Shown piece by piece: positions 5,702 through 19,733 of a stretch of 64,000 nucleotides of DNA. Below the pieces are notes generated by a model. That model did not search any database and was not told where the DNA came from. It saw nothing but the letters and a program-made list of their open reading frames with translations. How positions within the stretch are numbered: position 1 is the stretch's first letter; each line of letters begins with the position of its first letter. This stretch comes from Streptomyces fulvoviolaceus. GTDB taxonomy: Bacteria; Actinomycetota; Actinomycetes; Streptomycetales; Streptomycetaceae. The stretch lies in contig NZ_JOEY01000015.1 in the NCBI RefSeq assembly GCF_000718165.1, forward strand, positions 186,001-250,000, in the 5' to 3' direction. Both the position numbers and the translations under genes were made by a program.

Positions 5702-6451
5702 ATGTACCGGAAGCCGGTCCGCCCCGTCCTCGTCGTCATCGCCCACGGCAGCCGCGATCCGCGGCATGCCGCGACGGTGCACGCCCTGGTGCGCCGGGTG
5801 CGCGCGATGCGCCCCGGCGTACGGGTGGAGACCGGCTTCCTGGACTTCAACATCCCCTCGGTCCAAGGGGTGTTGGAGTCACTGGCGGCGGAGGGCGTCC
5901 GGGACGTCGTAGCGCTCCCCCTCCTGCTGACCCGCGCGTTCCACGCGAAGGCGGACATCCCGGCGGTCCTCAGGGACGCGCCGCCGCAGCTCCGCATCCG
6001 CCAGGCGGAGGTGCTGGGCCCGTCCCCGCTCCTCCTGTCGGCCCTCGAACGCCGTTTGTACGAGGCGGGGTTGACGCCCGCCGACAAGTCCTCGACCGGG
6101 GTCGTACTGGCCTCGGCGGGGTCCACCGACCCGGAGGCGATCGCAGTGATCGCAGAAATCGCGCGGGAGTGGCGGCACACCGGTTGGTGCGCCGTGCGAC
6201 CTGCGTTCGCCTCCGCTGCTCTCCCCCGCACCGAGGACGCGGTACGGGAACTCCGGGCGCTGGGCTGCACGAAGGTCGCGGTCGCGCCGTATGTCCTGGC
6301 CCCCGGCTTCCTGCCCGACCGCATCGCGCGGGGCGCGGCGGAGGCGGATGTGCTGGCCGAGGTGCTGGGGCCTGCGCCGGAGGTGGCGCGGGTGTTGCTG
6401 GAGCGGTACGACGCGGCGCGGATGCCCGCGCTGGCCGCTGTCGGCGCCTAG
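5702..6451 (+). CDS. Sirohydrochlorin chelatase family protein (CbiX-like)
   Basis: CbiX/SirB-type ferrochelatase or cobaltochelatase; in a sulfate operon the likely product is siroheme for sulfite reductase. 249 residues in two repeated half-domains. The first half has the N-terminal VIAHGSRDPRH motif and the second conserved metal-binding His in LLLTRAFHAKADIP. The second half begins near LASAGSTDPEAI and ends with a PAPEVARVLLERYDAAR helix. Starts 5 nt after the permease and is probably the last gene of the operon. Its last 93 bases have a diverged copy 220 bp further on. Confidence 0.88.
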   Translation: MYRKPVRPVLVVIAHGSRDPRHAATVHALVRRVRAMRPGVRVETGFLDFNIPSVQGVLESLAAEGVRDVVALPLLLTRAFHAKADIPAVLRDAPPQLRIRQAEVLGPSPLLLSALERRLYEAGLTPADKSSTGVVLASAGSTDPEAIAVIAEIAREWRHTGWCAVRPAFASAALPRTEDAVRELRALGCTKVAVAPYVLAPGFLPDRIARGAAEADVLAEVLGPAPEVARVLLERYDAARMPALAAVGA

Positions 6452-6577
6452 GGCCTGTCCGGCGGATCAGGCCGGCGTCGCAGGGTCTGGTCGTGCAGCT
6501 GCAAGGCGCCGGACCCCGCTCGGCTTGCCCGAGACGCGCCGCTTTTTTCAGTCGGCCTGATCCGCCGGGCAGGCCCT
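6450..6577. repeat. Long imperfect palindrome with 25-bp arms
   Basis: The arms at 6450-6474 and 6553-6577 are reverse complements at 24 of 25 positions; the single difference still allows a G-U pair in RNA. About 78 bases separate them and contain further short inverted pieces and a run of six T. The left arm begins at the cbiX stop codon. Arms of this kind with a GGCCTGTCCGGCGGATCA core are recalled as common extragenic palindromes in Streptomyces; that is memory, not a search result. Could act as a transcription terminator for the sulfur operon or be a mobile-repeat remnant. Confidence 0.8.
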
Positions 6578-6683
6578 GGCGGCAGAGCTCGTCGCCCAAC
6601 CGCGTCCGCGCGTACCGTACGGCCCTGCCGCTCCGGGTCCGGCTGAGCAGTCCCGCGTAGTACGCCACCGTGAGGTGCTGGGC
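6578..6683 (-). pseudogene. C-terminal fragment of an ArsR-type winged-helix regulator
   Basis: The minus strand reads QHLTVAYYAGLLSRTRSGR followed by AVRYARTRLGDELCR. This matches the end of the winged-helix domain of ArsR-family regulators (recognition helix, then the hairpin with GRxVxYxRTxLGxAL). There is no N-terminal part: the match begins abruptly at about 6683, inside the copied cbiX tail. The frame runs on into the palindrome with no proper end. A decayed fragment, not a working gene. The family call rests on a short match of about 35 residues. Confidence 0.5.
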
Positions 6684-6764
6684 CCGGCGCCGGAGGTGGT
6701 ACGGGTGTTGCTGCAGCGGTACGACGCGGCGCGGGTGCCGATTCCGGCGGCCGTCGGGGCCTGA
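6672..6764 (+). pseudogene. Duplicated 3' end of the CbiX-type chelatase gene
   Basis: From GAGGTGCTGGG at 6672 to the TGA at 6762-6764 the DNA repeats the last 93 bases of the gene ending at 6451. Translated, it gives EVLGPAPEVVRVLLQRYDAA and then RVPIPAAVGA, against EVLGPAPEVARVLLERYDAARMPALAAVGA in the intact gene. Both copies end at the equivalent stop codon. No start or upstream chelatase sequence accompanies it. It is a gene-tail duplication, or the end of a lost paralogue, now separated from the intact copy by the palindrome and the ArsR fragment. Confidence 0.85.
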
Positions 6765-6878: not shown

Positions 6879-9089
6879 GTGGCGGGTCGTGATTTCGGGC
6901 ATCATTTGGGGCTGCCCAGGGCGCTCTCCGGGCTGCCGCTCAGCCCACTGGTTCCCGGCTACGGCGCGCTCGTCGCCGCCCAGCACTCGGCAGGATTACG
7001 GCACGTCGGCGAGGCCCTGGCACCCGCGGGCGTCGGACTGGCCGTGCTCGACGGCCTGTACGTGCCGTCAGGTGCACGCGGCCGCCGGCGGGTGGACGAG
7101 GCGCTGCTGAACGATCTCTCCCGGGCCGCGACTCCTTCGGGCACCGTCGCCGGACTGCTGGCCGACGCCTGCCGGCGCGATCCGCAGGCGCCGCGCAGGA
7201 TCGTGCTGTACCAGCTGATCGGCCTGCTTCAGGACCGCCCTGCGGCCGAACGGCCCAGCGCCGCCGCCGAGTTGGGGGTGCAGCCCGCGGAGGCGGCCGG
7301 GCTGGTGGCGGCCGCGCGGTTACGGCCCGCCCTGGACCGGCGGCAGCGCGATGCCGCCGAGTCCCTCGCCGACGCCTGGAAGCGGCACCGGCTGCACCGG
7401 GTGCGCGCCCTGCTGGAGCAGTTACCCAAGAGCGGCCGCGATCAGGACCTTGAGACGCTGCGGGCCACCCTCGCCGCGCGACTGGCCGTCGTCGACGCGG
7501 CCCTGAAAGCGGCGCGGGAGGCCGACGGACGGCGGGACGCGAAGGCCGCGAGCGAGGAGTATCTGCGCGCCCTGCACGAGGCCGCCGACGACCGGCCGGC
7601 CCTGCGCGGCCTGGTCCGCGTCCACGGACCCCGGGGCGGCCGTCCCGCCCTCCTGCACGCCGAACTCGCCTGGGAGCAGGTCGAGTTGAGCTGGCAGGAC
7701 AGCGGCGTCGAGGAAGACCACGACTGGCGGCTGCTGTGTCTTTTCCGCGACGCGAAGGGCGCGGCGAGGGTCCGCGAGGTGGCCTTGGACTCCACAGGCC
7801 TCACGGCCCGGGACACGGCCGTCGCTCTCGGCAGCACCGTCCGCTATGCCGCCCTCCCCGTGCGCGACGGGCGCGCGACCGGTCCGCCGCTGGTCTCGCA
7901 CCGGGTCCTGGTCGCCCCCGACGTCACCGGACTGACCCTGGCCGATGGCCCTCGGCGCGTTGCGGGCTCCTGGCAACAGCCGCCGGGCGCCGCCGACGTG
8001 ACCGTCGAGTGCACCGGCCCCGAAGGCACCACCGGTCAACTCCGGCCCCGCACCGGCGGGTTCACCGCCACCGACCTGCCCGTCGGGAGCCACGCCTTCC
8101 GCGTCGTCTGCCACTACCGCGCCCCGGGCGGCGCCCTCGTCCTCTCCCCCGGAGTCCGCGCCACCCGCACCGTCCATCCCTGGCCGGAACCGGTGCGCAC
8201 CCTCACCGCCCGCGCCGACGGCGAGGCGTTACGGGTCGACTGGACCGGCGCGCAGGGCGCCGAGGTCCGGCTGGTGCGGTGGCCCGGTGAGGCACCGGCT
8301 CCCGGCACCGAGCTGCGCACGGACGAGCTGCCGCCCCGGCTCGATGAAGGCGGGGCGCTGCTGCGGCCCCCCGCAGGGTCCCTCCGGCTCGCGTCCGTCG
8401 CCGTGCTCGGCGAGCGCGCCCTGGCGGGTCCCGCGGTCGACGTCGAGACACTGAGCCCGGTGACCGGGCTCGCCGCCCGCCGCCTCCCGGACGGACAGGC
8501 CGAGATCACCCTCGACTGGCCCGACGGCGCCGGCCATCTCTCGGTCACCTGGGAGCTCCTGGACCTCTCAGAAGGGGGGTCCACGGGCGGCGAACGGACC
8601 GTCACCGCGCACGCCTTCCGGCGCGGCGGACTGCGGTTGCCCGTCGGTCCGCGCGGTGTCCGCATCCGGGCCGCCGGCGCTCCCCGGTCGCCGGACGCGG
8701 TCGTCATACCCGCCACGACCGCCGACGTGGTGCTGCCGCCGGACGCCGCCATCGACTACCGACTCGTCCGCCCGCCAAGGAAGTTCTTCGGACGGGGCGG
8801 TGGCCCCACGGTGTTGCGGGTCACCCTCTCCGCACCGGGCGGCCACCCGTCCGTCCCCGAGTTCGTGTGTGTCGCCCGCAGCGGCACGCTCCGCCCCCGC
8901 AGCGCCACCGACGGCACCACCGTGCTGCGGATACCCGGCACGGACCTGACGCGCCACGGCATGGTCGAGCAGGAGCTGCCGGCCGCGCCCTGCCCGGCCC
9001 CGTACACCCTGCGCGGCTTCCTGCTGGGAGAGCACGCGGCCGCCGTCCGCCTCGAAGAACCGTCCCCCGCGACCCTGGTGGTGCGCTGA
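6879..9089 (+). CDS. Large protein with helical N-terminus and Fn3-like C-terminal repeats, first gene of the GTPase/TerY-P operon
   Basis: 736 residues, no named family recognised. Residues about 1-250 look alpha-helical and Ala/Arg-rich. From about 330 there are beta-rich repeats resembling fibronectin type III domains, for example EPVRTLTARADGEALRVDWT and SPVTGLAARRLPDGQAEITLDWPD. No signal peptide or membrane segment, so probably cytoplasmic; an adaptor or sensor role is a guess. Starts at GTG 6879 after a G-rich stretch (GGGGGGG) and ends 3 nt before the next gene. It contains four in-frame TTA codons (codons 40, 148, 182 and 451), extraordinary for Streptomyces, so its translation, and possibly the coupled operon, should depend on the bldA tRNA. 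Confidence 0.75.
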   Translation: MAGRDFGHHLGLPRALSGLPLSPLVPGYGALVAAQHSAGLRHVGEALAPAGVGLAVLDGLYVPSGARGRRRVDEALLNDLSRAATPSGTVAGLLADACRRDPQAPRRIVLYQLIGLLQDRPAAERPSAAAELGVQPAEAAGLVAAARLRPALDRRQRDAAESLADAWKRHRLHRVRALLEQLPKSGRDQDLETLRATLAARLAVVDAALKAAREADGRRDAKAASEEYLRALHEAADDRPALRGLVRVHGPRGGRPALLHAELAWEQVELSWQDSGVEEDHDWRLLCLFRDAKGAARVREVALDSTGLTARDTAVALGSTVRYAALPVRDGRATGPPLVSHRVLVAPDVTGLTLADGPRRVAGSWQQPPGAADVTVECTGPEGTTGQLRPRTGGFTATDLPVGSHAFRVVCHYRAPGGALVLSPGVRATRTVHPWPEPVRTLTARADGEALRVDWTGAQGAEVRLVRWPGEAPAPGTELRTDELPPRLDEGGALLRPPAGSLRLASVAVLGERALAGPAVDVETLSPVTGLAARRLPDGQAEITLDWPDGAGHLSVTWELLDLSEGGSTGGERTVTAHAFRRGGLRLPVGPRGVRIRAAGAPRSPDAVVIPATTADVVLPPDAAIDYRLVRPPRKFFGRGGGPTVLRVTLSAPGGHPSVPEFVCVARSGTLRPRSATDGTTVLRIPGTDLTRHGMVEQELPAAPCPAPYTLRGFLLGEHAAAVRLEEPSPATLVVR

Positions 9090-9092
9090 GCC

Positions 9093-10340
9093 ATGACGAC
9101 CGTCATCTGCCCCTACTGCTTCGACCGCGCACCCGCGGCCAAGCTGCCCTACCGCTGCCTGATGACTCCGAGCGGCGTACGCGGCGGCACGCCCTGCGGT
9201 CCTGAACGCGACGACATCTGGGCCGGGTTCATGGGCCCGAGCGTGCCCCCGGCGGCGCGGATGCGCGGCCCTGTCTTCACTCCGGCGCGAGGGGTCGCCG
9301 CACTGGCGGCCGGGATGCGGGGCGGCAGCAGCGTGCCCTGTCCGGGGTGCGGAGTGTCCACGCCGGTGCGGGTGTGCCGGTCCTGCCACAGCGACCTGCC
9401 GAGCGACTACTGCGACCAGGACAGCCGCATCATCGCGCTGGTCGGGGCGAAGGCCTCCGGCAAGAGCACCTATGTCTCCGTGCTGGTCAACGAGTTGAAC
9501 CAGCGGGTCGGACAGGCCTACCACGCCGTGCTGGCCGCGATGGGGCAGAGCACCCAGCAGCGGGACAAGGAGATGGCCGAGGACCTGTACGACCGGCTGC
9601 GGCTGCCGGACGCCACCCGCCCGGCCGCCCTCGGCTTCAACGACCCGCTGCTGTACCGGCTGAGCATGCCGCGCCGGGGGCGGCTGGGCTCCGGCACCCG
9701 GCACACCACACTGGTGTTCTTCGACGCGGCCGGCGAGGACCTCGCGGGTGCCGAGGCGATGGACCGCTACACCCGGTATCTCAGCGCCGCCGACGGCATA
9801 GTCCTGCTGGTCGATCCGCTCCAACTGGGCTCGGTTCGCGACCGGTTGCCCGTGCACGACGGTCCTCCGCTGCCCGTGGTGGAGACTCCGCCGCGGCAGA
9901 TCGCCGCCGACCTCGCGGCCCAGCTGCGCGCGCACGGCAAGGGCGGGTCCCGCGGACGGGTCAGCACGCCGATCGCGGTGGCCGTCACCAAGTCGGACAT
10001 GCTCAAGCCGCTGCTCGACCCGCACTCGCCGCTGCTCGCCAACGCCCGGCACGCCGAGGGGGCGTTCGACGAGGACGACCGGCTCGCCGTGCACGAGGAG
10101 ATCCGGTCCCTGATGGCGGAGTGGGACTCGGGCGCGCTGGTACGGCAACTGGAGCTGGACTTCGCGGAGTTGTCGCTGTTCGGGCTGTCGGCGCTCGGTG
10201 CGCCGCCGCCCGCCGACGCACCGGCGGACGTACCGAAGTCGGGGCCACGTCCGGTCCGGGTGGAGGATCCGCTGCTGTGGCTGCTGGCCCGGCGCGGTCT
10301 GCTGCCGGTCCGTGACGCGGGGAAGGGACGAGCCAAGTGA
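9093..10340 (+). CDS. Zinc-ribbon P-loop GTPase of the TRAFAC/double-GTPase type
   Basis: 415 residues. The N-terminal zinc-binding cysteines are CPYC (residues 6-9), then CPGC and CRSC before residue 105. The GTPase core follows: Walker A GAKASGKST (about 117-125), G3-like FFDAAGED, and G4-like AVTKSD. Family knowledge: such GTPases are encoded with GTPase-associated protein 1 and a second GTPase in predicted NTP-dependent conflict systems (described computationally by Aravind and colleagues). Here it sits between the Fn3-like protein and the GAP1-type protein, and its stop overlaps the next GTG by 4 nt. No membrane segment. The specific job is unknown. Confidence 0.85.
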   Translation: MTTVICPYCFDRAPAAKLPYRCLMTPSGVRGGTPCGPERDDIWAGFMGPSVPPAARMRGPVFTPARGVAALAAGMRGGSSVPCPGCGVSTPVRVCRSCHSDLPSDYCDQDSRIIALVGAKASGKSTYVSVLVNELNQRVGQAYHAVLAAMGQSTQQRDKEMAEDLYDRLRLPDATRPAALGFNDPLLYRLSMPRRGRLGSGTRHTTLVFFDAAGEDLAGAEAMDRYTRYLSAADGIVLLVDPLQLGSVRDRLPVHDGPPLPVVETPPRQIAADLAAQLRAHGKGGSRGRVSTPIAVAVTKSDMLKPLLDPHSPLLANARHAEGAFDEDDRLAVHEEIRSLMAEWDSGALVRQLELDFAELSLFGLSALGAPPPADAPADVPKSGPRPVRVEDPLLWLLARRGLLPVRDAGKGRAK

Positions 10341-12949
10341 CCCTGGCCCAGCTGCACTACACGTCGGCGCCGCCGGGGCCCGACGGTTCCGGCTTCCGGT
10401 TCACGGCGGTCAGCGCGGGCGTGTCGCAGGGGCTGCTGCGGGAGGCCGAGCAGCTCATCGGGTACGAGCCGCCGCGCGACTTCCCGGCCCGCCCCGACAC
10501 CGAACAGCTCAGGTCGTTTCCCAAGGCCCTGAGCTTCAGCGAACTGTCCGACGGCGGGCGCCTGTTGAGCCGTTCCGTCTACACGGGGGCGGACTACAGC
10601 GGCCGTTGGGGCAACTTCCACGCGCACGCCCTGCACCTGCCGCCCGGTGCACGGCTGCCGGACGGGGCGCTGCCCATCACGGCCTGGGAGTCGCCCCGTT
10701 GGGCCGGCTCCACTCCGCCCGGTGGCCACCCCGAGCCGATCGACCGCTTCGAATCGTCGGGGCTGATCCACCGGGACTCCCTCGTCGCGTTCGCCGTGTC
10801 CCGGACCGACCGGCTCGCCGCGTTCTTCGCCGACCTGCGGGTGCTCGCCGAGGACCCGGACGCCGGGCAGATCGTGCTCGTCGAGAACGACAGCGCCGAC
10901 GTGGCCCGGTGGATCACCCTCGCCTGCGCGGTGCTGCCCCGGGAGCGGGCCCACCGGCTGACGTTCACCACGTACACGCGCCGGCCGCAGCAGGCCCGCC
11001 AGCAGATCATCGGCGCTCTGCCGTCCTCGGAGTCCGTCACCCACGACCACCGCTACCGGGTCCACGACTGCACCGGCCGGGCGCCGTCCGCACCGGTCAC
11101 GGACGCGTGGGCCGACCTGTGCGCACGGATCTGGTGCGCGGGCCGGCCCGAACTGTTCCAGGACGCGCACCTGGAGGTCGGGCCGCTGGCGGTGACCGCA
11201 CTGGTCGCCGGGATCGAGCTGGACGCGGACGGCCGTACGGCGGCGGCACGATGGGCGGCCGAGCAGGCAGGTGCGCTTCCCCACGCGACGTTGGCGGAGC
11301 TGGTGGGCGCGTTGTGCGCGGACGGCAAGGGTGCCGCCGTAGCGGATTCCGGAGCCGACGGCGAACAGGCGGCACTGGCAGCGCTGTTGGCCCGGATCGA
11401 GGGACAGCTGCCGACATCCGTGACCGCGGCGCTCGCCGCGCGCGTGCTGGCCTCGGCCGTCCTGAGCCGGGGCCCGGTCCCGGCGTTGCGGGCCGGATCG
11501 CTCACCCCCGAAACCCGGGCCGGCCTGGCCCGGGACCTGGCGCCCGCCATCCGGTCGGGCATCGACGACGTCCACGAGCCGGCCGTCGGACGCCCCCTCG
11601 CCCTGCTGCGCATCGCCGACCTGCTCGACGTCGACTGCCAGGACCTCCTCCCGGAACTGGCGGGCCGCCTCGCCCGGGCCCTGGTCACCGAGCCACCGAC
11701 CGACTCCGCGGACCGGTCGGCCGCGGACAGCGTGGCGCATCCCGCGGGGTACGGCCCGGGCGACGCCACAAGCCGCGCCGCAGCCTCGGGCCGTACTCCG
11801 ACGGGTGTCTGGAACTCGCCGTCGGCCGACGCCCCGGCCCCCCCCGCCGCCCCCGCCGCCTGTCCACCCGCCCTGCTCGACGCCGTGCACGAGCACCCCT
11901 CCCTGCGTATCGCGCTCTTCGCGTCCCTCGACGCGCTCGCCGCCGCCGACCCGCAGACCGTCGCGCGGATGCTGGGCGGGGCGGGGCTGCCCGTGGAACT
12001 GCAGCCCGGCAACCCCCATCTGCGGATGTGCGTTCTGGCGGGCGCCGCGCGTGGGTCCGGGAGCCGGCTCGCGCGGTTCCATGAGCTCCTGCGGGCCGCC
12101 GGAGTGTCACCGCACGCCGACACCACGCTGTTGCGCACCGCCCTGCGCCTGGTGTGGAGCGGCGAGCTCCCGACCGGGGAAGAGGCGAGCCGGCTGCTGA
12201 ACGAGCTGGGGTCCGACATCCATCGCTCGGCCGGTACCCGGGATCTGCTGATCGACGCCGCCCTCACCGCACCGCCGGAGGACCGGGACGTACCCGCCCT
12301 GGCCGTGGAGCTGCTCACCGCCTTCTCGGCCGAGCTGCGGCCCGGGCAGCGCGCGGCCCTGCTCCTGCTGGAGTACGTGCGGCTGCTGGGCACGGAGGGC
12401 GAGGGCGACAACTGGGTCACCCGGGTCCTGCAACTGCGGGACAGCGCGACCGAGCCCGTGCCGGACACCGTGACCGACCGGGTGTTCGGCATGCTCGCGT
12501 GGCGGCTCGTCAAGGGGCCGACCCCCGAGAGCGAGCTGTACGCCTTGGTCCGGTCGGCTGAGCCCCGGCTGTTCGCGGCGTACGAGCGGGCCGGACGCCT
12601 GGACCGTGTGGGCGACCGGCTGCGGACCGTGCCGTCGTACGCCGCCCAGTGCTTCAGTGCCTGGAGCGCCTTCCCCGGGACCCATCCGGCCTGGGACGAG
12701 GCGCGCAACGCCCTGCTGACCAAGGTGCTGCGGCCGATCGTGCGGGCGCTGCCCGCCGAGGACGTCGTCGCCGTGGAGCAGGCCCTCGGCAGCGCGGGCC
12801 GGGGCAGGCTCGACGCGTTCCGCACCTGGAACCGGCCCGGCACGCTCGGCCGGCTCGCGGGACGCCTCTCGGGCCGCGGCCGCCGCGGTGAACAGCCCTC
12901 CGCCTGGCACGCGGACGTGGAGCCGCCGTCCGACGGGGGCCGCCGATGA
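10337..12949 (+). CDS. GTPase-associated protein 1-related protein
   Basis: 870 residues, cytoplasmic. The N-terminal domain (about 1-130), with LAQLHYTSAPPGPDGSGF, GYEPPRDFPARPDTEQL and GNFHAHALHLP, is the hallmark of GTPase-associated protein 1. The middle has helical repeats and the C-terminal half is helix-rich up to a basic tail. A Pro/Ala linker occurs near residue 500. The family is predicted to act with the paired GTPases as effector or adaptor; no biochemical role is established to my knowledge. Starts with GTG overlapping the upstream TGA; the end overlaps a short ORF at 12946 by ATGA. Confidence 0.85.
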   Translation: MTLAQLHYTSAPPGPDGSGFRFTAVSAGVSQGLLREAEQLIGYEPPRDFPARPDTEQLRSFPKALSFSELSDGGRLLSRSVYTGADYSGRWGNFHAHALHLPPGARLPDGALPITAWESPRWAGSTPPGGHPEPIDRFESSGLIHRDSLVAFAVSRTDRLAAFFADLRVLAEDPDAGQIVLVENDSADVARWITLACAVLPRERAHRLTFTTYTRRPQQARQQIIGALPSSESVTHDHRYRVHDCTGRAPSAPVTDAWADLCARIWCAGRPELFQDAHLEVGPLAVTALVAGIELDADGRTAAARWAAEQAGALPHATLAELVGALCADGKGAAVADSGADGEQAALAALLARIEGQLPTSVTAALAARVLASAVLSRGPVPALRAGSLTPETRAGLARDLAPAIRSGIDDVHEPAVGRPLALLRIADLLDVDCQDLLPELAGRLARALVTEPPTDSADRSAADSVAHPAGYGPGDATSRAAASGRTPTGVWNSPSADAPAPPAAPAACPPALLDAVHEHPSLRIALFASLDALAAADPQTVARMLGGAGLPVELQPGNPHLRMCVLAGAARGSGSRLARFHELLRAAGVSPHADTTLLRTALRLVWSGELPTGEEASRLLNELGSDIHRSAGTRDLLIDAALTAPPEDRDVPALAVELLTAFSAELRPGQRAALLLLEYVRLLGTEGEGDNWVTRVLQLRDSATEPVPDTVTDRVFGMLAWRLVKGPTPESELYALVRSAEPRLFAAYERAGRLDRVGDRLRTVPSYAAQCFSAWSAFPGTHPAWDEARNALLTKVLRPIVRALPAEDVVAVEQALGSAGRGRLDAFRTWNRPGTLGRLAGRLSGRGRRGEQPSAWHADVEPPSDGGRR

Positions 12950-13041
12950 GCCGTACGACACCGTCGGCGGCCCGGTCCGCCGGCCACGCGGCACACGCCG
13001 GGTCCGGGTCCGGGCCTTCGGCCGAAGGAGATAGCCGATGA
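12946..13041 (+). CDS. Short coupled ORF (31 residues) bridging two operon genes
   Basis: The ATG overlaps the stop of the GAP1-type gene (ATGA) and its own TGA overlaps the ATG of the next gene. The 31 residues are Ser/Ala/Gly-rich with no recognisable domain. The region also contains the ribosome binding site GAAGGAG of the next gene, so it may serve mainly to carry ribosomes across the gap. Whether the peptide is made or matters is unknown. Confidence 0.3.
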   Translation: MSRTTPSAARSAGHAAHAGSGSGPSAEGDSR

Positions 13042-14678
13042 CCGTCTACATTCCCCTCATGGCGCTGCTCGGCTGGACCGCGCTGATAGCCGTCGGACTG
13101 TGCCTGGGCAACGTGCTCTGGAAGTTCCTCGGCATCGGCGTGGGCGCCGTGTGGCGGGGTCTCGGACCGTGGCAGACGGGCACGCCGGATCAGCGCGTAC
13201 CGGTTGTCGGGGCGGACGAGCCCGCTCATCTCGGCTACTGGTGGCGGCAGATGTGGGTGGACACCGTGTCGGCCGCCGGGTACGGCATACGCGTGATCTG
13301 GACGGCATTCGCCGACCCGTGGATGGGCCGGTACGCCGACAACCTGTTCCACGGACGGAATCCGAACGGCCTGCGCGCCACCTCGCCCGGCAGCCGGCTC
13401 TGGCTGGCCGTGTTCGTGGCACCCGGCACCGCCGTGGGCGCGCTGCTCGGCGCCACGCTCGCCACCGTTCTCCTCGGCACGGTGCTGGCGGTGTTCGCCC
13501 TGCTGCTCGGCATGGTGTGGCTGGGCTGCGCGGCGCCCGTGCCAGTGGTGCGGGGCGTGGAGCGCGGCTGGATGCTGGCCCGCGGAGTCCGGGTCAAGTG
13601 CCCCTACCCCGGCTGCTATCTGCCGGTGCCCCTGCCCATGTACCGGTGCCCGAAGTGCCGGGCGGAACACCGCGCACTGCGCCCCGGACGGTACGGCGTG
13701 CTGTGGCACGCGTGCGCGTGCGGGCACCGGCTGCCGACGACGCGGATCGCGGGCCGGACGAAGCTGACGGCGTCGTGCCCGCACTGCACGCAGTACCTGC
13801 CGAAGTCGGTCGGCACCACCCGGGTCGTGCACGCGCCGCTCATCGGCGGCACCTCCTCCGGCAAGACGATGCTGATGGCGGCCATGGTGGAGGGCCTGCA
13901 CAGCTGTGCGCGGCGCGGCGAGCTGACGGTCGAGTACGCCTCGGACGACGACCGGCGCACGGCCAACGACCTCAACCAGGACCTGAAGAGCACCGGTTGG
14001 GCGCACGCGACGACCAGCACCCAGCCACGCGCCCTGATGCTGGCGGTGGCCTGCGGACGGCGCCGCAGACTGCTGTACCTGTACGACCCGATGGGCGAGA
14101 CGGTGAGCGACGCCTCACGCGTGCGTGCCCAGCAGTATCTGGCGCACACGCACGGCGTGATCCTGGTCGCGGACGTACTGGCCGACCCGAAGGTACGCGG
14201 CCGGCTCGGCAAGGAGGACACCCGGCGGGCCCAGGACGCACGCCCCTCGCAGCAGGGGCCCTGGGACACCTACCAGCGGCTGACCGGCGAGCTGGCGGCG
14301 CTGACCGGACGGCGCTCGAAGCTGTCCGTGGCGACGGTCGTCACCAAGCGGGACGTCCTGGACCAGCTGGTGTCCCTCCCCGTGCCCGGCGCGCAGATCG
14401 ACGCCTGGCTGGAGGAGATCGGTCTGGGCGGCCTGGTACGCGCCCTCGGGCACGACTTCCGTTCGGCGCGCTACTGGGCCGTGAGCGCCCACGCGGCCAC
14501 CGGCACCGGCCCGCTGGAGAGCGAGCAGCGCCGAGCCGCCGAGCCGGTGCTGTGGCTGCTCGCGGCCTCCGGGCTGAGGACCGACGCGCTCACCGGGCCC
14601 GGCGGCGCGAGCGGCAAGGAGCGCAGGATCAGGCTGCGCGGCAACGGCGACCGTGAGAGGAAGTACAGCCCCGCATGA
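13038..14678 (+). CDS. Membrane-anchored zinc-ribbon GTPase (double-GTPase type 2)
   Basis: 546 residues. An N-terminal membrane segment (about 4-33, MALLGWTALIAVGLCLGNVLW) and a second hydrophobic pair (about 115-165) anchor it in the membrane. A multi-Cys zinc ribbon follows (CPYPGCYLPVP, CPKC, CACGH, CPHC; about 190-255). Then comes the GTPase domain with Walker A GGTSSGKT (about 270-277), a G3-like LYLYDPMGE and a G4-like VVTKRD. Good Shine-Dalgarno GAAGGAG before the ATG. Together with the 9093 gene it forms the pair of GTPases typical of these systems. Ends in ATGA overlap with the tiny membrane protein at 14675. Confidence 0.85.
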   Translation: MTVYIPLMALLGWTALIAVGLCLGNVLWKFLGIGVGAVWRGLGPWQTGTPDQRVPVVGADEPAHLGYWWRQMWVDTVSAAGYGIRVIWTAFADPWMGRYADNLFHGRNPNGLRATSPGSRLWLAVFVAPGTAVGALLGATLATVLLGTVLAVFALLLGMVWLGCAAPVPVVRGVERGWMLARGVRVKCPYPGCYLPVPLPMYRCPKCRAEHRALRPGRYGVLWHACACGHRLPTTRIAGRTKLTASCPHCTQYLPKSVGTTRVVHAPLIGGTSSGKTMLMAAMVEGLHSCARRGELTVEYASDDDRRTANDLNQDLKSTGWAHATTSTQPRALMLAVACGRRRRLLYLYDPMGETVSDASRVRAQQYLAHTHGVILVADVLADPKVRGRLGKEDTRRAQDARPSQQGPWDTYQRLTGELAALTGRRSKLSVATVVTKRDVLDQLVSLPVPGAQIDAWLEEIGLGGLVRALGHDFRSARYWAVSAHAATGTGPLESEQRRAAEPVLWLLAASGLRTDALTGPGGASGKERRIRLRGNGDRERKYSPA

Positions 14679-14794
14679 CCCAGGTGACCCCACCCATCGG
14701 ACACGGACGGCGGCTGACGGCCGGCCTGTTCATCACCGCTCTCGTGCTGACACCGGCCGCCCTGGCACTGCTCGTGCGGTGGCTGCTGCCGTGA
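14675..14794 (+). CDS. 39-residue single-pass membrane peptide
   Basis: The ATG overlaps the preceding stop (ATGA) and the stop overlaps a GTG (GTGA). After a short polar start with Arg-Arg, residues about 16-36 (GLFITALVLTPAALALLV) form one membrane segment, ending RWLLP. Its position between the membrane GTPase and the vWA gene, with coupling on both sides, argues that it is a real small protein, perhaps a membrane partner of the GTPase. It is below usual gene-calling size. A minute downstream frame (14791-14847, 18 residues, GTG start) links it to the vWA start in the same coupled way. Confidence 0.55.
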   Translation: MTQVTPPIGHGRRLTAGLFITALVLTPAALALLVRWLLP

Positions 14795-14843
14795 GACCCA
14801 CAACGACCGAAGACCCCGACCCGACTCCCGGAAAGGACACGGA

Positions 14844-15530
14844 GTGAGCGACATTCCCGGCGGGCCCATGGCGAACCGGCCGGTCCACTTCATCTGGCTG
14901 CTCGACTGCTCGTACTCGATGCAGGGAGAGAAGATCGCCCGGCTCAACTACGCGATCAGAGAGGCCATTCCGGAGATGCGTGCGGTGGCGCACGACAACC
15001 CGGTGGCCCAGCTGCTGGTGCGGACCATCACCTTCTCCAGCACGGCCCAGTGGCACCACCAGACACCCGTCCCGGTCGACGACTTCACCTGGCAGGACGT
15101 CGAGGTGGACGGTATGACCAATCTCGGCGAGGCCCTCACGCTCGTCTCGCGGGAGCTGCAGAGCCCGCCGATGCCGCAGCGCGCGTTGAAGCCCGTGCTG
15201 GCGCTGGTGTCGGACGGCGGGCCCACGGACGACTGGAAGGCCGGTCTCAAGGCGATCGACGCGACGCCGTGGGGCCGTAAGGCGGTACGCGTGGCCATCG
15301 CGATCGGCCACGACGCGGACCGCGGCGTTCTCCAGGAGTTCATCGGCAACCCGGAGATGCCTCCGTTGGACGCCAACAGCCCCAAGCAGCTTGCGGCGGC
15401 GATCCGTTGGGCGTCGACGGCGGCGGTGAAGGCGGCGTCACAGCCGATGGCGGGCTCGGCGGACAACCTGACGAAGCAGCCGTACGCACCGCCGGTCCTG
15501 GATGACGACGACGATGACGACGTGTGGTGA
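14844..15530 (+). CDS. TerY-like von Willebrand factor A domain protein
   Basis: 228 residues; metal-ion-dependent adhesion-site protein of the TerY-P triad. MIDAS residues are visible: DCSYS (21-25, the DxSxS motif), the Thr in DGMTNLGEAL, and the Asp in LVSDGGPTDDW. It ends in a run of seven Asp before Val-Trp, an acidic tail of unknown use. Family knowledge: TerY-type vWA proteins are regularly encoded with a PP2C phosphatase and a kinase with a zinc ribbon, exactly the next two genes. GTG start after GGAAAGGA. Cytoplasmic. Confidence 0.9.
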   Translation: MSDIPGGPMANRPVHFIWLLDCSYSMQGEKIARLNYAIREAIPEMRAVAHDNPVAQLLVRTITFSSTAQWHHQTPVPVDDFTWQDVEVDGMTNLGEALTLVSRELQSPPMPQRALKPVLALVSDGGPTDDWKAGLKAIDATPWGRKAVRVAIAIGHDADRGVLQEFIGNPEMPPLDANSPKQLAAAIRWASTAAVKAASQPMAGSADNLTKQPYAPPVLDDDDDDDVW

Positions 15531-16450
15531 CGCTCGGGGTGCGGCGCTGGGACACGCTGGCCGACAGCGTCCAGGGCGTCGGCAAGCGATGCAACCAGGA
15601 CTGGTACGCCTGTGAGGGCACCGGCTCCGGCGAGGATCCGCTGGTGCTGGCGGTGGCGGACGGGCACGGCTCGGCCAGGCACTCCCGCAGCGAGCTGGGC
15701 GCGCGGTTCGCCGTGGACCGGTTCCTGGTCCGGGCCGCCGAGTTCGGCCGGGCGGCCCGCGACTGCCACGAACCGGGGCGCCTGACACGGCTGATGACGT
15801 ATGCCCGGGACGACTTCCCCCGCGCGCTGGTGCACGACTGGCGGGAGGAGGTCCTGGGGCACTGGTCCCGGCACCGCCCGGTCGCCGACGACGGGGCGCG
15901 GGAGCCCGAGCCGGACGAGAAGCTGCTGCTGTACGGCACGACCCTGATCGGCGCGGTGCTCACGCCCTGGCTGTTCGTGGCCTGGCAGATCGGCGACGGC
16001 GATCTCGCGGTCGTCGAGCACGACGGCACGCTGACCCGGCCGCTCGCGCCCGAGGAGGAGGACCTGGGCGACGAGACGGAGTCGCTGTGCGGGCCGGAGG
16101 CCTGGGCCGCGGTGCGGATGCACTGGGCGCCGGTGTTCGAGGAGGCGCGCGCGCCTCGGCTGGTGGTGCTGTCGACGGACGGGCTGTCGAAGAGCTTCGC
16201 GTCGGCCGACGGTTACCGGGAGTTCGTCGCCGGACTGGACGACCGGCTGGCGGCGCAGGGCAGTTCGGGAGTGCGGGAGGTGCTGCCCCAGTGGCTGCGG
16301 CAGGCCTCGCAGTACTCCGGGGACGACACGACCCTGACGGCCGCGCTGCGCCACAGGCACGGGGACGTCGCACCCGAGGACGTCGCACGGGACGCCCCGC
16401 CGCACCCGGCGGCGCTGCCCTTGGAAACGGAACAGAAGACGGAGACGTAG
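15524..16450 (+). CDS. PP2C-family serine/threonine phosphatase of the TerY-P triad
   Basis: 308 residues, or 307 if it starts at the next GTG, 15527. Metal-binding PP2C motifs: KRCNQDWYA, VADGHGSARHS (DGxG), VAWQIGDGD, LSTDGLSKSF and GDDTTLTAAL near the C-terminus. It should remove phosphate placed by the kinase encoded next, on the vWA protein, the GTPases or the kinase itself; the substrate is inferred from gene order only. Its start overlaps the vWA stop. No membrane segment. Confidence 0.9.
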   Translation: MVTLGVRRWDTLADSVQGVGKRCNQDWYACEGTGSGEDPLVLAVADGHGSARHSRSELGARFAVDRFLVRAAEFGRAARDCHEPGRLTRLMTYARDDFPRALVHDWREEVLGHWSRHRPVADDGAREPEPDEKLLLYGTTLIGAVLTPWLFVAWQIGDGDLAVVEHDGTLTRPLAPEEEDLGDETESLCGPEAWAAVRMHWAPVFEEARAPRLVVLSTDGLSKSFASADGYREFVAGLDDRLAAQGSSGVREVLPQWLRQASQYSGDDTTLTAALRHRHGDVAPEDVARDAPPHPAALPLETEQKTET

Positions 16451-16453
16451 CGG

Positions 16454-17791
16454 ATGAGCGGCATGCTCGACAGCGGGACGCGGATGGCCGTGGAGAACGG
16501 CGACGAGATCGAGATCATCGACATGCTCGGCGCCGGCGGCCAGGGCGAGGTGTACCGGGTCCGGACACCGGGCGGGGACAAGGCCCTCAAGTGGTACTAC
16601 CCCACGTCGGCGACACCCGACCAGGAGACGATCGTACGGGAGCTGGTGACCCGGGACTTCGACGACGACCGGTTCCTGTGGCCGGAGGCGTACGTGAACG
16701 CGCACCGCGGCTCGTTCGGGTATCTGATGGGGCTCAGGCCGGAGCGCTACAAAGGCCTTCCCGACCTCTTCCGGCGCCAACTGCGCACCAGCACGGGTGC
16801 GTTGCTCACGGCCTGCCTGTACACGGTGGAGGCCTACCAGGCGCTGCACTCGCGCGGCATCGCCTACCGGGACATCTCCTGGGGCAACATCTTCTTCGAC
16901 CCGAGCACCGGTGACGTCCTGGTCTGCGACAACGACAACGCGGTGGTGGAGGGCGACGCCAGCGGCATCTCGGGGACCATGAAGTTCATGGCCCCGGAAC
17001 TGGTGCGCGCCGACCCGGGGGCGCGCCCCGGAACCCAGTCCGACCTGCACTCGCTCGCCGTGCTGCTGTTCATGCTGCTGATGAACCATCACCCCTTCGA
17101 GGGCCGACGGGAGTTGGGCATCCACTGCCTGGACGAGGCGGCGGAGCGCAAGCTGTACGGCAAGAACCCGCTGTTCGTCTTCGATCCGACGGACGACTCC
17201 AACGCGCCCGACCCGATGGAGCACTTGACGGTGCTGGCGACGTGGGACGCTGCCGCCGACAAGCTCCAGGAGCTGTTCCGGCGCAGCTTCACCGTGGGTC
17301 TGCACGAACCGGCGCGCCGGGTGCGCGAGTCCGAGTGGCGGGACGCGCTGCGGGCGGTGCTCGACTCGGTGGTGGAGTGTGCCTCCTGCGGGCGGCAGAA
17401 CATGACGGAGCCAGGTGAGAACCCGCCGCCGCGCGCCTGTTGGGGGTGCCGGGCACAACTGGTGCTGCCGCCCCGTCTGACGGTGACGACACCGCCGCCG
17501 CGCACCGAACACCACATCCGGCTGCGCCGGGCGGCCCGGGTGCAGGCGCACCATCTGCTGCCGGAGCCGACGCGGCACGACTGCTCGGACGCGAGCCTGG
17601 TCGCGGAGCTGGTCGAACATCCCTCGAAACCGGGCCGGTTCGGCATCGCGAACCGCTCCGGGGAGACCTGGCGGGGCACCCGCTCCGACGGCACCCCGCA
17701 GCAGATCGGCCCCGGTCAGACGGTGCCGCTGCGTTCCGGTCTGGAGCTGGATCTCGGGAGCGGGGTGCGGGCGGCGGTGCGGGCCAAGTGA
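16454..17791 (+). CDS. Protein kinase-like protein with C-terminal zinc ribbon (TerY-P kinase)
   Basis: 445 residues. Kinase landmarks: glycine loop GAGGQGEVY (26-34), Lys in ALKWYY, catalytic loop YRDISWGNIFF (the HRD motif reads YRD), CDNDNA in place of DFG, and MAPEL. After the kinase lobe (about 1-300) comes a zinc ribbon with CASCGRQN and CWGC, then a beta-rich C-terminal domain with NRSGETWRG and GLELDLGSG that may be FHA-like. The YRD and DND variants fit an atypical but probably active kinase, since Lys and both Asp are retained. Last gene of the operon; a strong hairpin follows within 3 nt of its stop. Confidence 0.88.
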   Translation: MSGMLDSGTRMAVENGDEIEIIDMLGAGGQGEVYRVRTPGGDKALKWYYPTSATPDQETIVRELVTRDFDDDRFLWPEAYVNAHRGSFGYLMGLRPERYKGLPDLFRRQLRTSTGALLTACLYTVEAYQALHSRGIAYRDISWGNIFFDPSTGDVLVCDNDNAVVEGDASGISGTMKFMAPELVRADPGARPGTQSDLHSLAVLLFMLLMNHHPFEGRRELGIHCLDEAAERKLYGKNPLFVFDPTDDSNAPDPMEHLTVLATWDAAADKLQELFRRSFTVGLHEPARRVRESEWRDALRAVLDSVVECASCGRQNMTEPGENPPPRACWGCRAQLVLPPRLTVTTPPPRTEHHIRLRRAARVQAHHLLPEPTRHDCSDASLVAELVEHPSKPGRFGIANRSGETWRGTRSDGTPQQIGPGQTVPLRSGLELDLGSGVRAAVRAK

Positions 17792-17793
17792 CC

Positions 17794-17826
17794 GTGAAGG
17801 GCACCCCACCGGGTGGGGGCCCTTCA
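17794..17826. terminator. Strong bidirectional hairpin terminator
   Basis: GTGAAGGGC at 17794-17802 pairs with GCCCTTCAC at 17818-17826, and the inner ACCCCACC and GGGTGGGG extend the stem. It begins 3 nt after the kinase stop and ends 25 nt before the stop of the convergent gene at 17851, so it can end transcription from both sides. No long T run is present. Confidence 0.85.
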
Positions 17827-17850
17827 CGTCGTACGGTCCGGCGAGGTGCG

Positions 17851-18171
17851 TCACATGCCGAGGATGCGGCCGATCTCCTGGGCCAGCGCGAGCCCGCCGC
17901 TGCCCGTCGCGACGCCGACGCCGATGGTCTCCAGGGCGGAGCGGATACGGCCCCGGTCGGGGCTCTGCCCGCCCTGCCCGGCACGGGCCAGCTCGCCCTG
18001 GACGATCTCGGCCTGCGGGACGAGCGCGGGGCTCTCGCGGCGCAGCCGGTCGACGAGTTCGCCCGCGAGGCGCAGGACGACCGCCGCGTCCGTCCCGTTG
18101 TTGATCTCGATACGGCCGTCGGGGCCGATGTTGCTGGGGCCGTTGACGTTGTTGATGTTGTACGTGGTCAT
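17851..18171 (-). CDS. Small protein with N-terminal NINNVNGPSNIG motif
   Basis: 106 residues, cytoplasmic, no named family. Residues 4-17 are YNINNVNGPSNIGP, identical to a segment near the C-terminus of the neighbouring 497-residue protein. A helical stretch follows (VVLRLAGELVDRLRR; ALVPQAEIVQGELARAG) and a Gly-rich C-terminal helix RIRSALETIGVGVATGSGGL. The layout, a short Asn-rich sequence joined to a helical module, resembles prion-like signalling pairs in which adjacent genes share one motif; this is inference. The ATG at 18171 is preferred, as it is the only start before the motif. Convergent with the kinase operon. Confidence 0.75.
   Translation of the reverse strand: MTTYNINNVNGPSNIGPDGRIEINNGTDAAVVLRLAGELVDRLRRESPALVPQAEIVQGELARAGQGGQSPDRGRIRSALETIGVGVATGSGGLALAQEIGRILGM
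18121..18162 (-). repeat. 42-bp exact direct repeat, copy 1 (encodes YNINNVNGPSNIGP)
   Basis: All 42 bases are identical to 18324-18365. It lies at the 5' end of the 106-residue gene and in the same reading phase as in the other copy. Identity at every third position shows either a recent duplication or gene conversion. Confidence 0.95.
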
Positions 18172-18208: not shown

Positions 18209-18250
18209 TGGTCAGGGCTTGATGGTCAGGGCTTGTTGGTCAGGGCTTGT
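18209..18250. repeat. Three tandem 14-bp repeats spanning a stop codon
   Basis: TGGTCAGGGCTTGA at 18209 is followed by TGGTCAGGGCTTGT at 18223 and again at 18237, with partial units on either side. The stop codon of the 497-residue gene (TCA at 18240-18242, minus strand) lies inside the third unit, and the last residues Asn-Lys-Pro come from the repeat. Slippage here could change the C-terminus because 14 is not a multiple of three. Confidence 0.9.
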
Positions 18251-19733
18251 TGGGAGGTGCCCCGCCGCCCGGCCCCGAAGGACCGCTCCCCTGGGGCGCG
18301 TTCGGATTGCCGATCTGGCCGCCGGGGCCGATGTTGCTGGGGCCGTTGACGTTGTTGATGTTGTAGGTCTGCGTGTTGATGTTCTGCTGGGCCTTGTCGA
18401 ACGAGCTGGTGTCGACGTTGTGGTCCTTCAGGAAGCGCTCGGTCGCGACGAGCACCCCCTGCTGGAGCCGGTTCAGGAAGTCCGCCGCGTCGGTGCGCTC
18501 GTTGTAGCCCGCCTGCTCCCAGTCGCCGATTCGCTCGCGCAGACTGTCGGGGGCGCCGTAGTCGTAGATCACATGCTGGTCGGTGATGTCCCGGCGCACC
18601 TTCTTCAGGAACTTCGCCGAACGGCGCCGCGTCCGGCCCCGCCCGCGGATGCGCCCCACGGCGCCCCTCAGCTCCGGCAAGGTGTGCGAAGTGGCATGCC
18701 CGACGAGGCTCCACCAGCGGTCGAAGGAGGCCACCGGCAGCCGGTCCAGCCGGTAGAAGCGGGCGCCGAGCGGAGGTATCGCGTAGACGGCGACCTCCCA
18801 GGTCAGACTGGGCCGGTTGAGGATCGCCCGCAGGTACATGGAGACGATGAGCCGGCCGCCCTCGCCGACCCGCTCCAGGCACAGATGGGTCCGCATGGCC
18901 GCGCCGGGGCTCTGCAGGCCCGCCTGGACGAGCTGCTTGGGGATCTGGGCCTGCGGCCGTCGGGTGCGGTCGGGCACCAGTTCCTGAAGCATGTAGGCGT
19001 GGCTGCCGAGGACGTAGAGCCGGTTCCTGGCGCGCAGGCCGTCCAGGCCGGAGATGCTCTCCATCTCGCGGGCCACATAGGTGTGGAGGTCGATGGCGTC
19101 GAAGGAGAGGATCGGGAGCTTGCCGCCGCCCGGCGCCTCGGCGGGCTTGCTGACGTCGATGGGCTGCCAGACGGTTTCCCTGAGTTCGTGGCCACTGCCG
19201 ACGAACGGGTTGTCGAGGGCGGCCGCGTCGGCGTACGGCAGGACGTTGGCGCGCTTGAGTTCGTGCAGCCAGGCCTCGGCCTCGGGTTCCACGGGTGGCG
19301 CGAGCTTCTCGGCCCGGTCCGGGTCGCGGAACACCTGCTGCGCCGCCGCGCGGGCCTGGGACTCCGCGTGGTGCACCAGCCACCACGCGGCCGCGAGGGC
19401 ACCGAGCAGGCCGTAGAACCCGATCTGGGCGACTGGCCCACGACCGCCGATCAGTCCCCCCAGGGCGACCAGCAGGGCGGTCACCAACAAGGCGCCGAGT
19501 GCGGCCAGTTGGCGGTCGAGCGCGGCGCGGCGGCGTACGGCCACGCGCGCGTGCCGGGCGAGGGCCACGAAGTTGACGCCGAGGGTCAGCCCCATCGCGT
19601 TCAGCCGGTCGCCGGTGAGGTCGCGGTCGACCTCCTGGGCAAAGTCGTCGTCGAGATGGACCGACGCGCACAGTCGCCGGGTCACTCCGTCCTTGCGGTA
19701 CTGCGGCAACGAAGGTAACGCTCTTCCCACCAC
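18240..19733 (-). CDS. Membrane protein with C-terminal NINNVNGPSNIG motif
   Basis: 497 residues. Two adjacent membrane segments lie at about 75-122 (LGALLVTALLVALGGLIGG and GFYGLLGALAAAWWLVHH). The central 330 residues are soluble and of unknown fold. The C-terminus has the shared motif YNINNVNGPSNIGP (about 457-470) and then a Gly/Pro/Asn tail ending NKP. Start at GTG 19733 after GGGGG and AGGT; codon 6 is then TTA (19716-19718), implying bldA control. A later in-frame GTG at 19685 would avoid the TTA. The gene converges on the GTPase/TerY-P operon and probably belongs with it. Function unknown. Confidence 0.75.
   Translation of the reverse strand: MVGRALPSLPQYRKDGVTRRLCASVHLDDDFAQEVDRDLTGDRLNAMGLTLGVNFVALARHARVAVRRRAALDRQLAALGALLVTALLVALGGLIGGRGPVAQIGFYGLLGALAAAWWLVHHAESQARAAAQQVFRDPDRAEKLAPPVEPEAEAWLHELKRANVLPYADAAALDNPFVGSGHELRETVWQPIDVSKPAEAPGGGKLPILSFDAIDLHTYVAREMESISGLDGLRARNRLYVLGSHAYMLQELVPDRTRRPQAQIPKQLVQAGLQSPGAAMRTHLCLERVGEGGRLIVSMYLRAILNRPSLTWEVAVYAIPPLGARFYRLDRLPVASFDRWWSLVGHATSHTLPELRGAVGRIRGRGRTRRRSAKFLKKVRRDITDQHVIYDYGAPDSLRERIGDWEQAGYNERTDAADFLNRLQQGVLVATERFLKDHNVDTSSFDKAQQNINTQTYNINNVNGPSNIGPGGQIGNPNAPQGSGPSGPGGGAPPNKP
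18324..18365 (-). repeat. 42-bp exact direct repeat, copy 2 (encodes YNINNVNGPSNIGP)
   Basis: Identical to 18121-18162. It lies near the 3' end of the 497-residue gene, so the same peptide closes one protein and opens the next one. Confidence 0.95.

Follow-up and report, generated by a model that had tools for sequence, protein, structure and literature searches.

Gene content of the locus

The window analysed here is a 64,000-nt stretch of the 11.6-Mb genome of Streptomyces fulvoviolaceus (RefSeq assembly GCF_000718165.1, contig NZ_JOEY01000015.1, positions 186,001 to 250,000), and our subject is a GTPase, kinase and phosphatase operon at positions 6879–17791 together with two genes, p106 and p497, that converge on it from the opposite strand. 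The operon contains seven large forward-strand genes, which are spaced 3 to 165 nt apart or overlap slightly and all have high third-position GC (open reading frame, or ORF, starts were set mechanically).

The first gene (6879–9089), called from its ORF and codon GC, encodes a 736-aa protein that we label Fn3-like only tentatively: a Pfam search with the window protein matched no family, a profile of nine relatives matched FN3con at 0.0018, and Pfam fn3 was found in one of those nine at 0.17. GTPase a (9093–10340) carries a DO-GTPase2 domain (PF19993, 6e-10) behind two N-terminal Cys-pair clusters of the zinc-ribbon type. The GAP1 gene (10337–12949) encodes GAP1-N2 (1e-44), GAP1-M (6e-23) and GAP1-C (2e-127) domains (PF20013, PF20014 and PF20052, all above cut-off). 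GTPase b (13038–14678) also has zinc ribbons and a DO-GTPase2 domain (PF19993, 2e-13), and a hydropathy scan placed its hydrophobic segments near the N-terminus (within residues 5–33 and 123–174), with no transmembrane segment found at the C-terminus. Three further genes encode a stand-alone, TerY-like vWA protein (14844–15530), which falls just below the Pfam cut-off (22.0 vs 23.8 bits), a PP2C phosphatase (15524–16450; PP2C_2, PF13672, 6e-31), and a Ser/Thr kinase (16454–17791; Pkinase, PF00069, 9e-17) with a C-terminal zinc ribbon and a further C-terminal region.

Alignments of 8 to 10 sequences per protein indicate that the active-site residues of the kinase, the phosphatase and both GTPases, and the metal site of the vWA protein, are intact. 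For example, K46, RD139-140, N145, D159 and APE180-182 are invariant in the kinase, as are its zinc-ribbon cysteines (C309/C312/C329/C332). The same holds for NQD24-26, DG46-47, D219 and DD267-268 in the phosphatase (the metal-binding Asp residues among them), for the MIDAS residues D21, S23, S25, T92 and D124 in the vWA protein, and for the P-loops, DxxGE and TKxD motifs (G1, G3 and G4) and N-terminal Cys pairs of GTPases a and b.

Between GTPase b and the vWA gene lies an eighth gene (14675–14794), whose start overlaps the GTPase b stop (ATGA) and which encodes a 39-aa protein with a single transmembrane (1-TM) segment; its relatives have VTPxxxRGRR..LF and one hydrophobic helix in common. 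An earlier sequence-only reading of the window had described ten overlapping or nearly overlapping ORFs. Its part list, the coupling of the seven large genes and the membrane tie are borne out by Pfam, the hydropathy scan and the alignments, apart from the weakly backed Fn3 label, and the list lacked the 1-TM gene and the p106/p497 pair. A count of ten needs very short ORFs, one of which (the 1-TM gene) is demonstrably conserved. The other two encode 31 aa (12946–13041) and 18 aa (14791–14847), and the former has no room in three related loci (L039, L048 and L061) because the GAP1 and GTPase b genes overlap there by 4 nt.

The same reading ended the unit at 17791, an interval which holds the operon genes and stops before p106 (17851–18171) and p497 (18240–19733), both on the reverse strand and both counted here as part of the unit. 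Their 3' ends lie 59 and 448 nt past the kinase stop. p106 consists of an N-terminal motif (TYNINNVNGPSNIG) and a predicted four-helix domain; p497 is predicted to have a helical hairpin (putatively in the membrane), an alpha/beta domain and a disordered C-terminal tail which carries a motif of the p106 type. Between the convergent kinase and p106 genes there is a GC-rich hairpin (17791–17851, arms gtgaagggc / gcccttcac) that could act as a terminator common to both; a T-run terminator was looked for at this junction and none was found.

Distribution and locus types

A genome-collection scan with the kinase as query gave 80 loci among the matches listed (of 226 relatives), mostly from Streptomyces. 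We divided them into clade A, the window's type (57 loci, kinase identity at least 61%), and clade B (23 loci, 51–57%). Some of these loci are cut by contig ends, and all counts below should be read with the loci's relatedness by descent in mind.

The sequence-only reading had called for a survey of gene order across genomes. In clade A, the six large genes other than the kinase are each kept in 51 to 57 of the 57 loci (Fn3 52, GTPase a 51, GAP1 55, GTPase b 54, vWA 57, PP2C 56; the kinase, as the query, 57), with unchanged order in the loci listed, so the arrangement is not a product of chance. The 1-TM gene is present in 54 of the 57, using a profile from 13 relatives, some of them from the same genomes; p106 and p497 are present in 53 and 52. 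The operon is nevertheless accessory in the genus, and the conservation in all Streptomyces that the earlier reading had named as evidence against its idea of a conflict or signalling system was not found: of 150 genomes, the window's own included, 46 have GAP1-C (in several contexts) and 18 have the kinase.

Clade B (L158–L180) keeps GAP1 (20/23), vWA (22/23), PP2C (21/23) and the kinase (23/23), its Fn3 gene is convergent, and each GTPase was matched in one locus of the 23. One clade B locus (L161) encodes two HSP70 proteins beyond Fn3 (Pfam, searched for this locus alone). All 80 vWA sequences compared (the window's, which closes with VW, and those of 79 loci from the two clades) finish with an acidic stretch and then [VIL]W as the last two residues. 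A free C-terminal signature of this kind invites a binding partner.

Two other locus types were seen. A reduced locus in Streptomyces griseoviridis (L127 / L051) has Fn3, GAP1, vWA and kinase matches and none to the GTPases, PP2C, p106 or p497, and is possibly decaying. A second common GAP1-C type has no GTPase or TerY-P matches to the window's proteins and often sits among the same neighbouring gene clusters (e.g., L026, L027, L029, L030, L033, L037, L043, L046, L055, L057 and L058).

Linkage of p106 and p497 to the operon

Wherever p497 was found in clade A, it lies on the strand opposite to the operon (53 of 53, i.e., 52 of the 57 loci plus the window), at a median of 410 nt from the kinase gene. 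The two also occur together across the genus: among the 150 genomes, 15 have both the kinase and a p497 ortholog, three the kinase alone, one p497 alone and 131 neither (Fisher p 8e-17, with no correction for phylogeny or relatedness). The ortholog threshold was E at most 1e-100, and the next match was at 5e-37. Of the kinase-only genomes, G093 and G081 (the latter on a contig of 4.9 kb) have a clade B kinase, and the third (G133) has a reduced locus without GTPase matches. In the sole genome with p497 and no kinase (G038, L062), p497 is convergent to a GAP1 gene, and a survey of the class found a second such case (L215).

If the pair stayed beside the operon through shared synteny, it would be a separate module, and the functional unit would be exactly the third theme of DO-GTPase/GAP1 systems described by Kaur et al. 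(PMC7159879). We consider this very improbable. We scored four flank genes (cbiX, ApbA, MDMPI and AKR), and 27 of the 30 clade A loci in which none was found still retain p106 and p497. This comparison covers mainly the downstream flank, because locus stretches often end in or near Fn3 and cbiX is therefore often unscorable. The co-occurrence counts, and the p497 genes convergent to GAP1 genes without the kinase, likewise tell against a separate module. Many complete operons lacking the pair, or many pairs of the window's motif class lacking GAP1, would strengthen the separate-module reading; we saw three and one, respectively. On the other side, the loci are related by descent, the pair is absent from the portion of Kaur et al. 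consulted (PMC7159879), and those three loci and that one pair do exist.

These and other cases weigh against treating the pair and the operon as one obligatory unit. Loci L125, L143 and L147 have all seven large genes with neither p106 nor p497 within 10 kb downstream, and L119 retains merely a p497 fragment, so the pair is not obligatory. It can also occur without the operon: in L218, another locus of the genus, p497 (at 9461) and p106 (at 10999) lie on the same strand and carry motifs of the window's class, with no GAP1 or kinase match in 20 kb, and high-scoring p497-like genes in L216, L217 and L219–L221 also lack GAP1 and the kinase. Only one of the 23 clade B triads has the pair (L168, Actinacidiphila acididurans), placed upstream of GAP1 on the operon strand. 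Finally, operon structure gives the pair no co-regulation with the seven genes, because p106 and p497 are on the other strand.

Conservation, the cbiX site and relics

Median identity to the window (45–47 loci) was 87% for vWA, 79% for GTPase a, 76% for the kinase, 61% for p497 and GTPase b, 60% for PP2C, 55% for p106, 52% for GAP1 and 50% for Fn3, the last two being lowest. These values are consistent with a signalling core that stays fixed while Fn3 and GAP1 change faster, in line with what Kaur et al. propose about sensing (PMC7159879).

In several species the locus adjoins cbiX, and we examined 30 loci from 61 genomes at this site. In operon-less genomes, cbiX is followed by a gene that in the window lies beyond p497 (ApbA-type in L254, MDMPI-type in L241), by an empty site or by a short leftover. 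L242 and L253 have a p106-like ORF whose motif is degraded or altered, and L240 has broken pieces of both p106 and p497. Such leftovers are what joint loss of the pair and the operon would leave. The window itself has two copies of the cbiX 3' end just ahead of the operon (6359–6449 and 6672–6762; 91 nt, 85%, 313 nt apart), and a 34-nt inverted repeat (arms 6441–6474 / 6553–6586) lies between them. The arrangement looks like an insertion or duplication scar.

The relics bear on a reading of p497 as a toxin and p106 as its keeper, in which p106 would block p497 through the common motif until the operon releases it. L242 and L253 keep a p106-like ORF at the cbiX site and no intact p497, which is what a persisting antidote might look like. 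The leftover p106 motif in L242 is itself degraded, however, and L240 has p497 remnants too, and we regard this reading as improbable.

The unit could instead be a regulator of membrane stress or development with no role in conflict, the triad (vWA, PP2C and kinase) and the GTPases tuning an envelope or hyphal process that includes p106 and p497. The high identities of the vWA protein and the kinase are unlike an arms race, a DO-GTPase is linked elsewhere to PSP envelope-stress operons (PMC11237479), and the place beside cbiX is shared by several species. We nevertheless find such a role somewhat doubtful: the distribution is patchy (18/150), the corresponding place in other species can be empty or hold relics, conservation is lowest in Fn3 and GAP1, and the DO-GTPase/GAP1 class has been predicted to be a conflict system (PMC7159879).

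Matching motifs of p106 and p497

The p106 N-terminus and the p497 C-terminus have one ~20-residue G/N-rich motif in common. p106 starts MTTYNINNVNGPSNIGPDGRI, and p497 ends TYNINNVNGPSNIGPGGQI followed by a Gly/Pro-rich tail. In predicted models, pLDDT is below 50 in both motif regions (p106 residues 1–20 and p497 residues 461–497). When the window's own genome was searched with a DNA pattern of the G-P-x-N-[IF]-G core, p106, p497 and one unrelated enzyme-like ORF were found, and nothing else.

The two motifs co-vary between loci. We took them from the 52 loci plus the window (53 pairs), and p106 motifs scored 65.9 against their own p497 motif vs 46.0 against crossed partners (0 of 20,000 permutations). 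Thinning to 39 loci with more than 10% divergence in the p497 body left this unchanged in kind (own 65.8, crossed 47.0), and the partial Mantel correlation given p497 body distance was 0.67 in both sets (0 of 5,000 permutations). The match is not general similarity, because the stretch just before the p497 motif (-2.0) and the shuffled motif (10.8) score low. In 23 of 53 pairs (14 of the 39 thinned) no other partner scored above the own one, whose median rank was 2, and many relatives have similar motifs.

Outside the motifs, the models are of limited help in assigning a function. Beyond its motif, p106 is modelled as a four-helix domain (mean pLDDT 73), which is too widespread a fold to be informative. 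The p497 model is confident (mean pLDDT 85.6, pTM 0.81) and has a long helical hairpin at residues 55–136, with one helix above a plain hydropathy threshold, and a central alpha/beta domain with weak START/PR-10-like fold matches. No Pfam or PDB sequence match was found for p497. Several p497 homologues are named "aromatic ring-opening dioxygenase LigA", a name which no family or model match here backs. A Pfam search with window p106, taken to E values of 1, gave no family, DUF5955 (PF19380) included; in a wider alignment of p106-type small partners, six of the 33 members, distant ones, match DUF5955 at that threshold (best 9e-7), and our literature search found no paper on DUF5955.

We propose, as a hypothesis, that the motifs form amyloid, because BASS pairs (amyloid signalling pairs associated with NLRs) were recognised by an unstructured motif of this kind, present both in a membrane protein and in the protein encoded next to it. 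The comparison with verified amyloid peptides is mixed. On the p106 side there is a modest likeness to a Congo-red-positive BASS3 peptide: in 29 of 53 motifs, no more than 5% of shuffles scored equally well. The p497 motif reached that level in 4 of 53, whereas a peptide published as negative did so in 5 of 53, and neither side resembles the sigma peptide. These results weigh against the proposal, as does the p497 fold search, in which no match points to a function.

The matching motifs may instead be an ordinary docking element (e.g., beta-hairpin addition) that holds p106 on p497 in a regulated membrane complex, with no amyloid and no templated spread. The co-variation demands merely specific pairing, and the p497 side is little like the verified amyloid motifs compared. 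We are nonetheless inclined to doubt simple docking: G/N-rich disordered stretches at opposite termini of the products of adjacent genes, with other motif classes at the corresponding positions in paralogues, are the pattern that revealed amyloid signalling pairs.

A wider family of p497-like proteins

At E 1e-10, p497-like proteins are encoded by 37 of the 296 genomes surveyed in the class and by 17 of 114 genera, and there are further loci in the genus. In 12 of 14 genus loci, the next gene encodes 123–144 aa (164 in one case, taking the longest frame), and by eye its start resembles the end of the p497-like protein. These 12 pairs have other motif classes, e.g., NNGIIATxGAxVxSSAVASG and LNQGLIQQGGTSIIGNQAIG. 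Across 20 hand-chosen p497-like regions, the best match to a neighbouring gene beat all 19 sets from other loci in 12 (one expected) and failed to do so in eight. Two of the 12 passing regions (L233 and L234) lie elsewhere in the window's own genome. The strongest pair of another class is in L229 (p497-like at 8113, partner at 10323), which has the near-exact common motif ATFHGGRHSFSxSTFGSGDIHHHTPP (z 19.6).

p106 and p497 may represent one branch of a large, undescribed, NLR-independent family of amyloid pairs in Actinomycetes, in which membrane proteins would match small partners, C-terminus to N-terminus, through many motif classes. Here the pair would have come under GTPase and kinase/phosphatase control, as a bacterial analogue of a phosphorylation-gated necrosome, although we hold this with considerable reserve. 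A 2021 review asks whether bacterial signalling amyloids exist in NLR-independent pathways (PMC7889193), and beyond the works cited here we found none in the literature searched, which mostly excluded subscription papers. To probe that question, the family supplies peptide pairs, mismatched pairs that occur naturally, and paralogue classes.

A possible two-tier switch

We tentatively favour, at somewhat less than even odds, an accessory, membrane-associated switch with two tiers, in which the GTPase/kinase module gates a motif-driven assembly of p106 and p497 as its output, likely ending in cell killing or arrest. The Fn3-like protein and GAP1 would provide sensing or scaffolding, and the DO-GTPase pair, with one member in the membrane, would set a GTP-dependent state. 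The kinase/PP2C/vWA triad would add a second, phosphorylation-dependent threshold. We infer, as the sequence-only reading did, a membrane sensor switched by GTP.

Together, the GTPase/GAP1 core and the triad would take the NLR's place as trigger. Once the switch has fired, the p106 N-terminal and p497 C-terminal motifs would bind each other and co-assemble into amyloid by homotypic cross-beta templating, as proposed for NLR/BELL or NWD2/HET-S pairs. Assembled p497 might then act at the membrane, most likely so that an infected or damaged cell dies or is arrested; the outcome would be membrane damage or defence.

The value of this proposal is that, in the portion of Kaur et al. consulted, the theme-3 systems are a switch without a named effector (PMC7159879), and p106/p497 is a concrete candidate output that travels along with it. 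Any reconstitution should also contain the 39-aa transmembrane protein. Should the motifs turn out not to assemble, the locus still defines a gene set for functional study of the operon.

Comparison with known systems

Kaur et al. (2020) defined DO-GTPase/GAP1 systems and read them from comparative genomics as conflict systems; their third theme makes up ~10% of GAP1-N2 neighbourhoods and is found in actinobacteria only (PMC7159879). By its domains, the window operon fits this already known theme: both have a DO-GTPase pair (one with transmembrane segments) that has two N-terminal zinc ribbons, intact GTPase motifs and a Walker B Glu, together with GAP1-N2/M/C, a zinc-ribbon kinase, a PP2C phosphatase and a stand-alone vWA protein, and both are actinobacterial. 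The theme's FNIII-repeat protein has a candidate counterpart in the window's Fn3-like protein, which gives a weak profile match. The sequence-only reading was right that the parts are familiar from computational work. The window differs in its conserved 1-TM gene, in the convergent p106/p497 motif pair and in the lack of a C-terminal transmembrane segment in GTPase b by hydropathy scan. The portion of Kaur et al. consulted does not mention the p106/p497 pair, and "amyloid" and "RHIM" each have 0 occurrences in the main text (PMC7159879). What we believe to be new is the conserved 1-TM gene, the p106/p497 linkage and the motif family. The clade B locus with HSP70 genes (L161) joins the second and third themes, because it has these genes and GAP1-vWA-PP2C-kinase in one locus; the two themes were called non-overlapping (PMC7159879). 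We found no experiments on DO-GTPase or GAP1 proteins in the literature searched, which lay outside most subscription papers.

The vWA, PP2C and kinase genes are adjacent, and the kinase has a C-terminal zinc ribbon, as in the TerY-P triads reportedly described by Anantharaman et al. in 2012. The earlier reading named no experimental role for the parts. This needs amending for the triad, since antiphage activity of TerY-P-like triads standing alone has been reported (Gao et al. 2020, as cited in PMC11090510), with the proviso that the tested modules have an OB-fold kinase tail and the window kinase a different one. The window triad is also embedded in a GTPase/GAP1 operon. In PADLOC, the vWA and PP2C proteins match no model (whether its library includes a TerY-P model was not checked), and the kinase alone matches, to models of other systems (mad6, PD-T4-6, C3a189 and MkoA). 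The kinase-kinase-phosphatase (KKP) prophage module ties a kinase/phosphatase balance to phage defence (PMC11341870); its description, on which this comparison is based, has no vWA, GTPase or motif pair.

The closest parallel to the p106/p497 pair is with BASS pairs. Such NLR-associated amyloid signalling pairs were reportedly described by Dyrka et al. in 2020. They were identified in association with NLRs (PMC7889193, PMC8086366, PMC12261475), and, like p106 and p497, they combine a membrane protein that has a motif of ~20 residues at its C-terminus with a neighbouring gene product that has the matching motif at its N-terminus, and occur in filamentous actinobacteria (PMC7889193, PMC8086366, PMC12261475, PMC9815663). 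The window's pair has no NLR, however: the N-terminal motif sits on p106, a 106-aa protein modelled with four helices. Control would come from the GTPases and the kinase instead.

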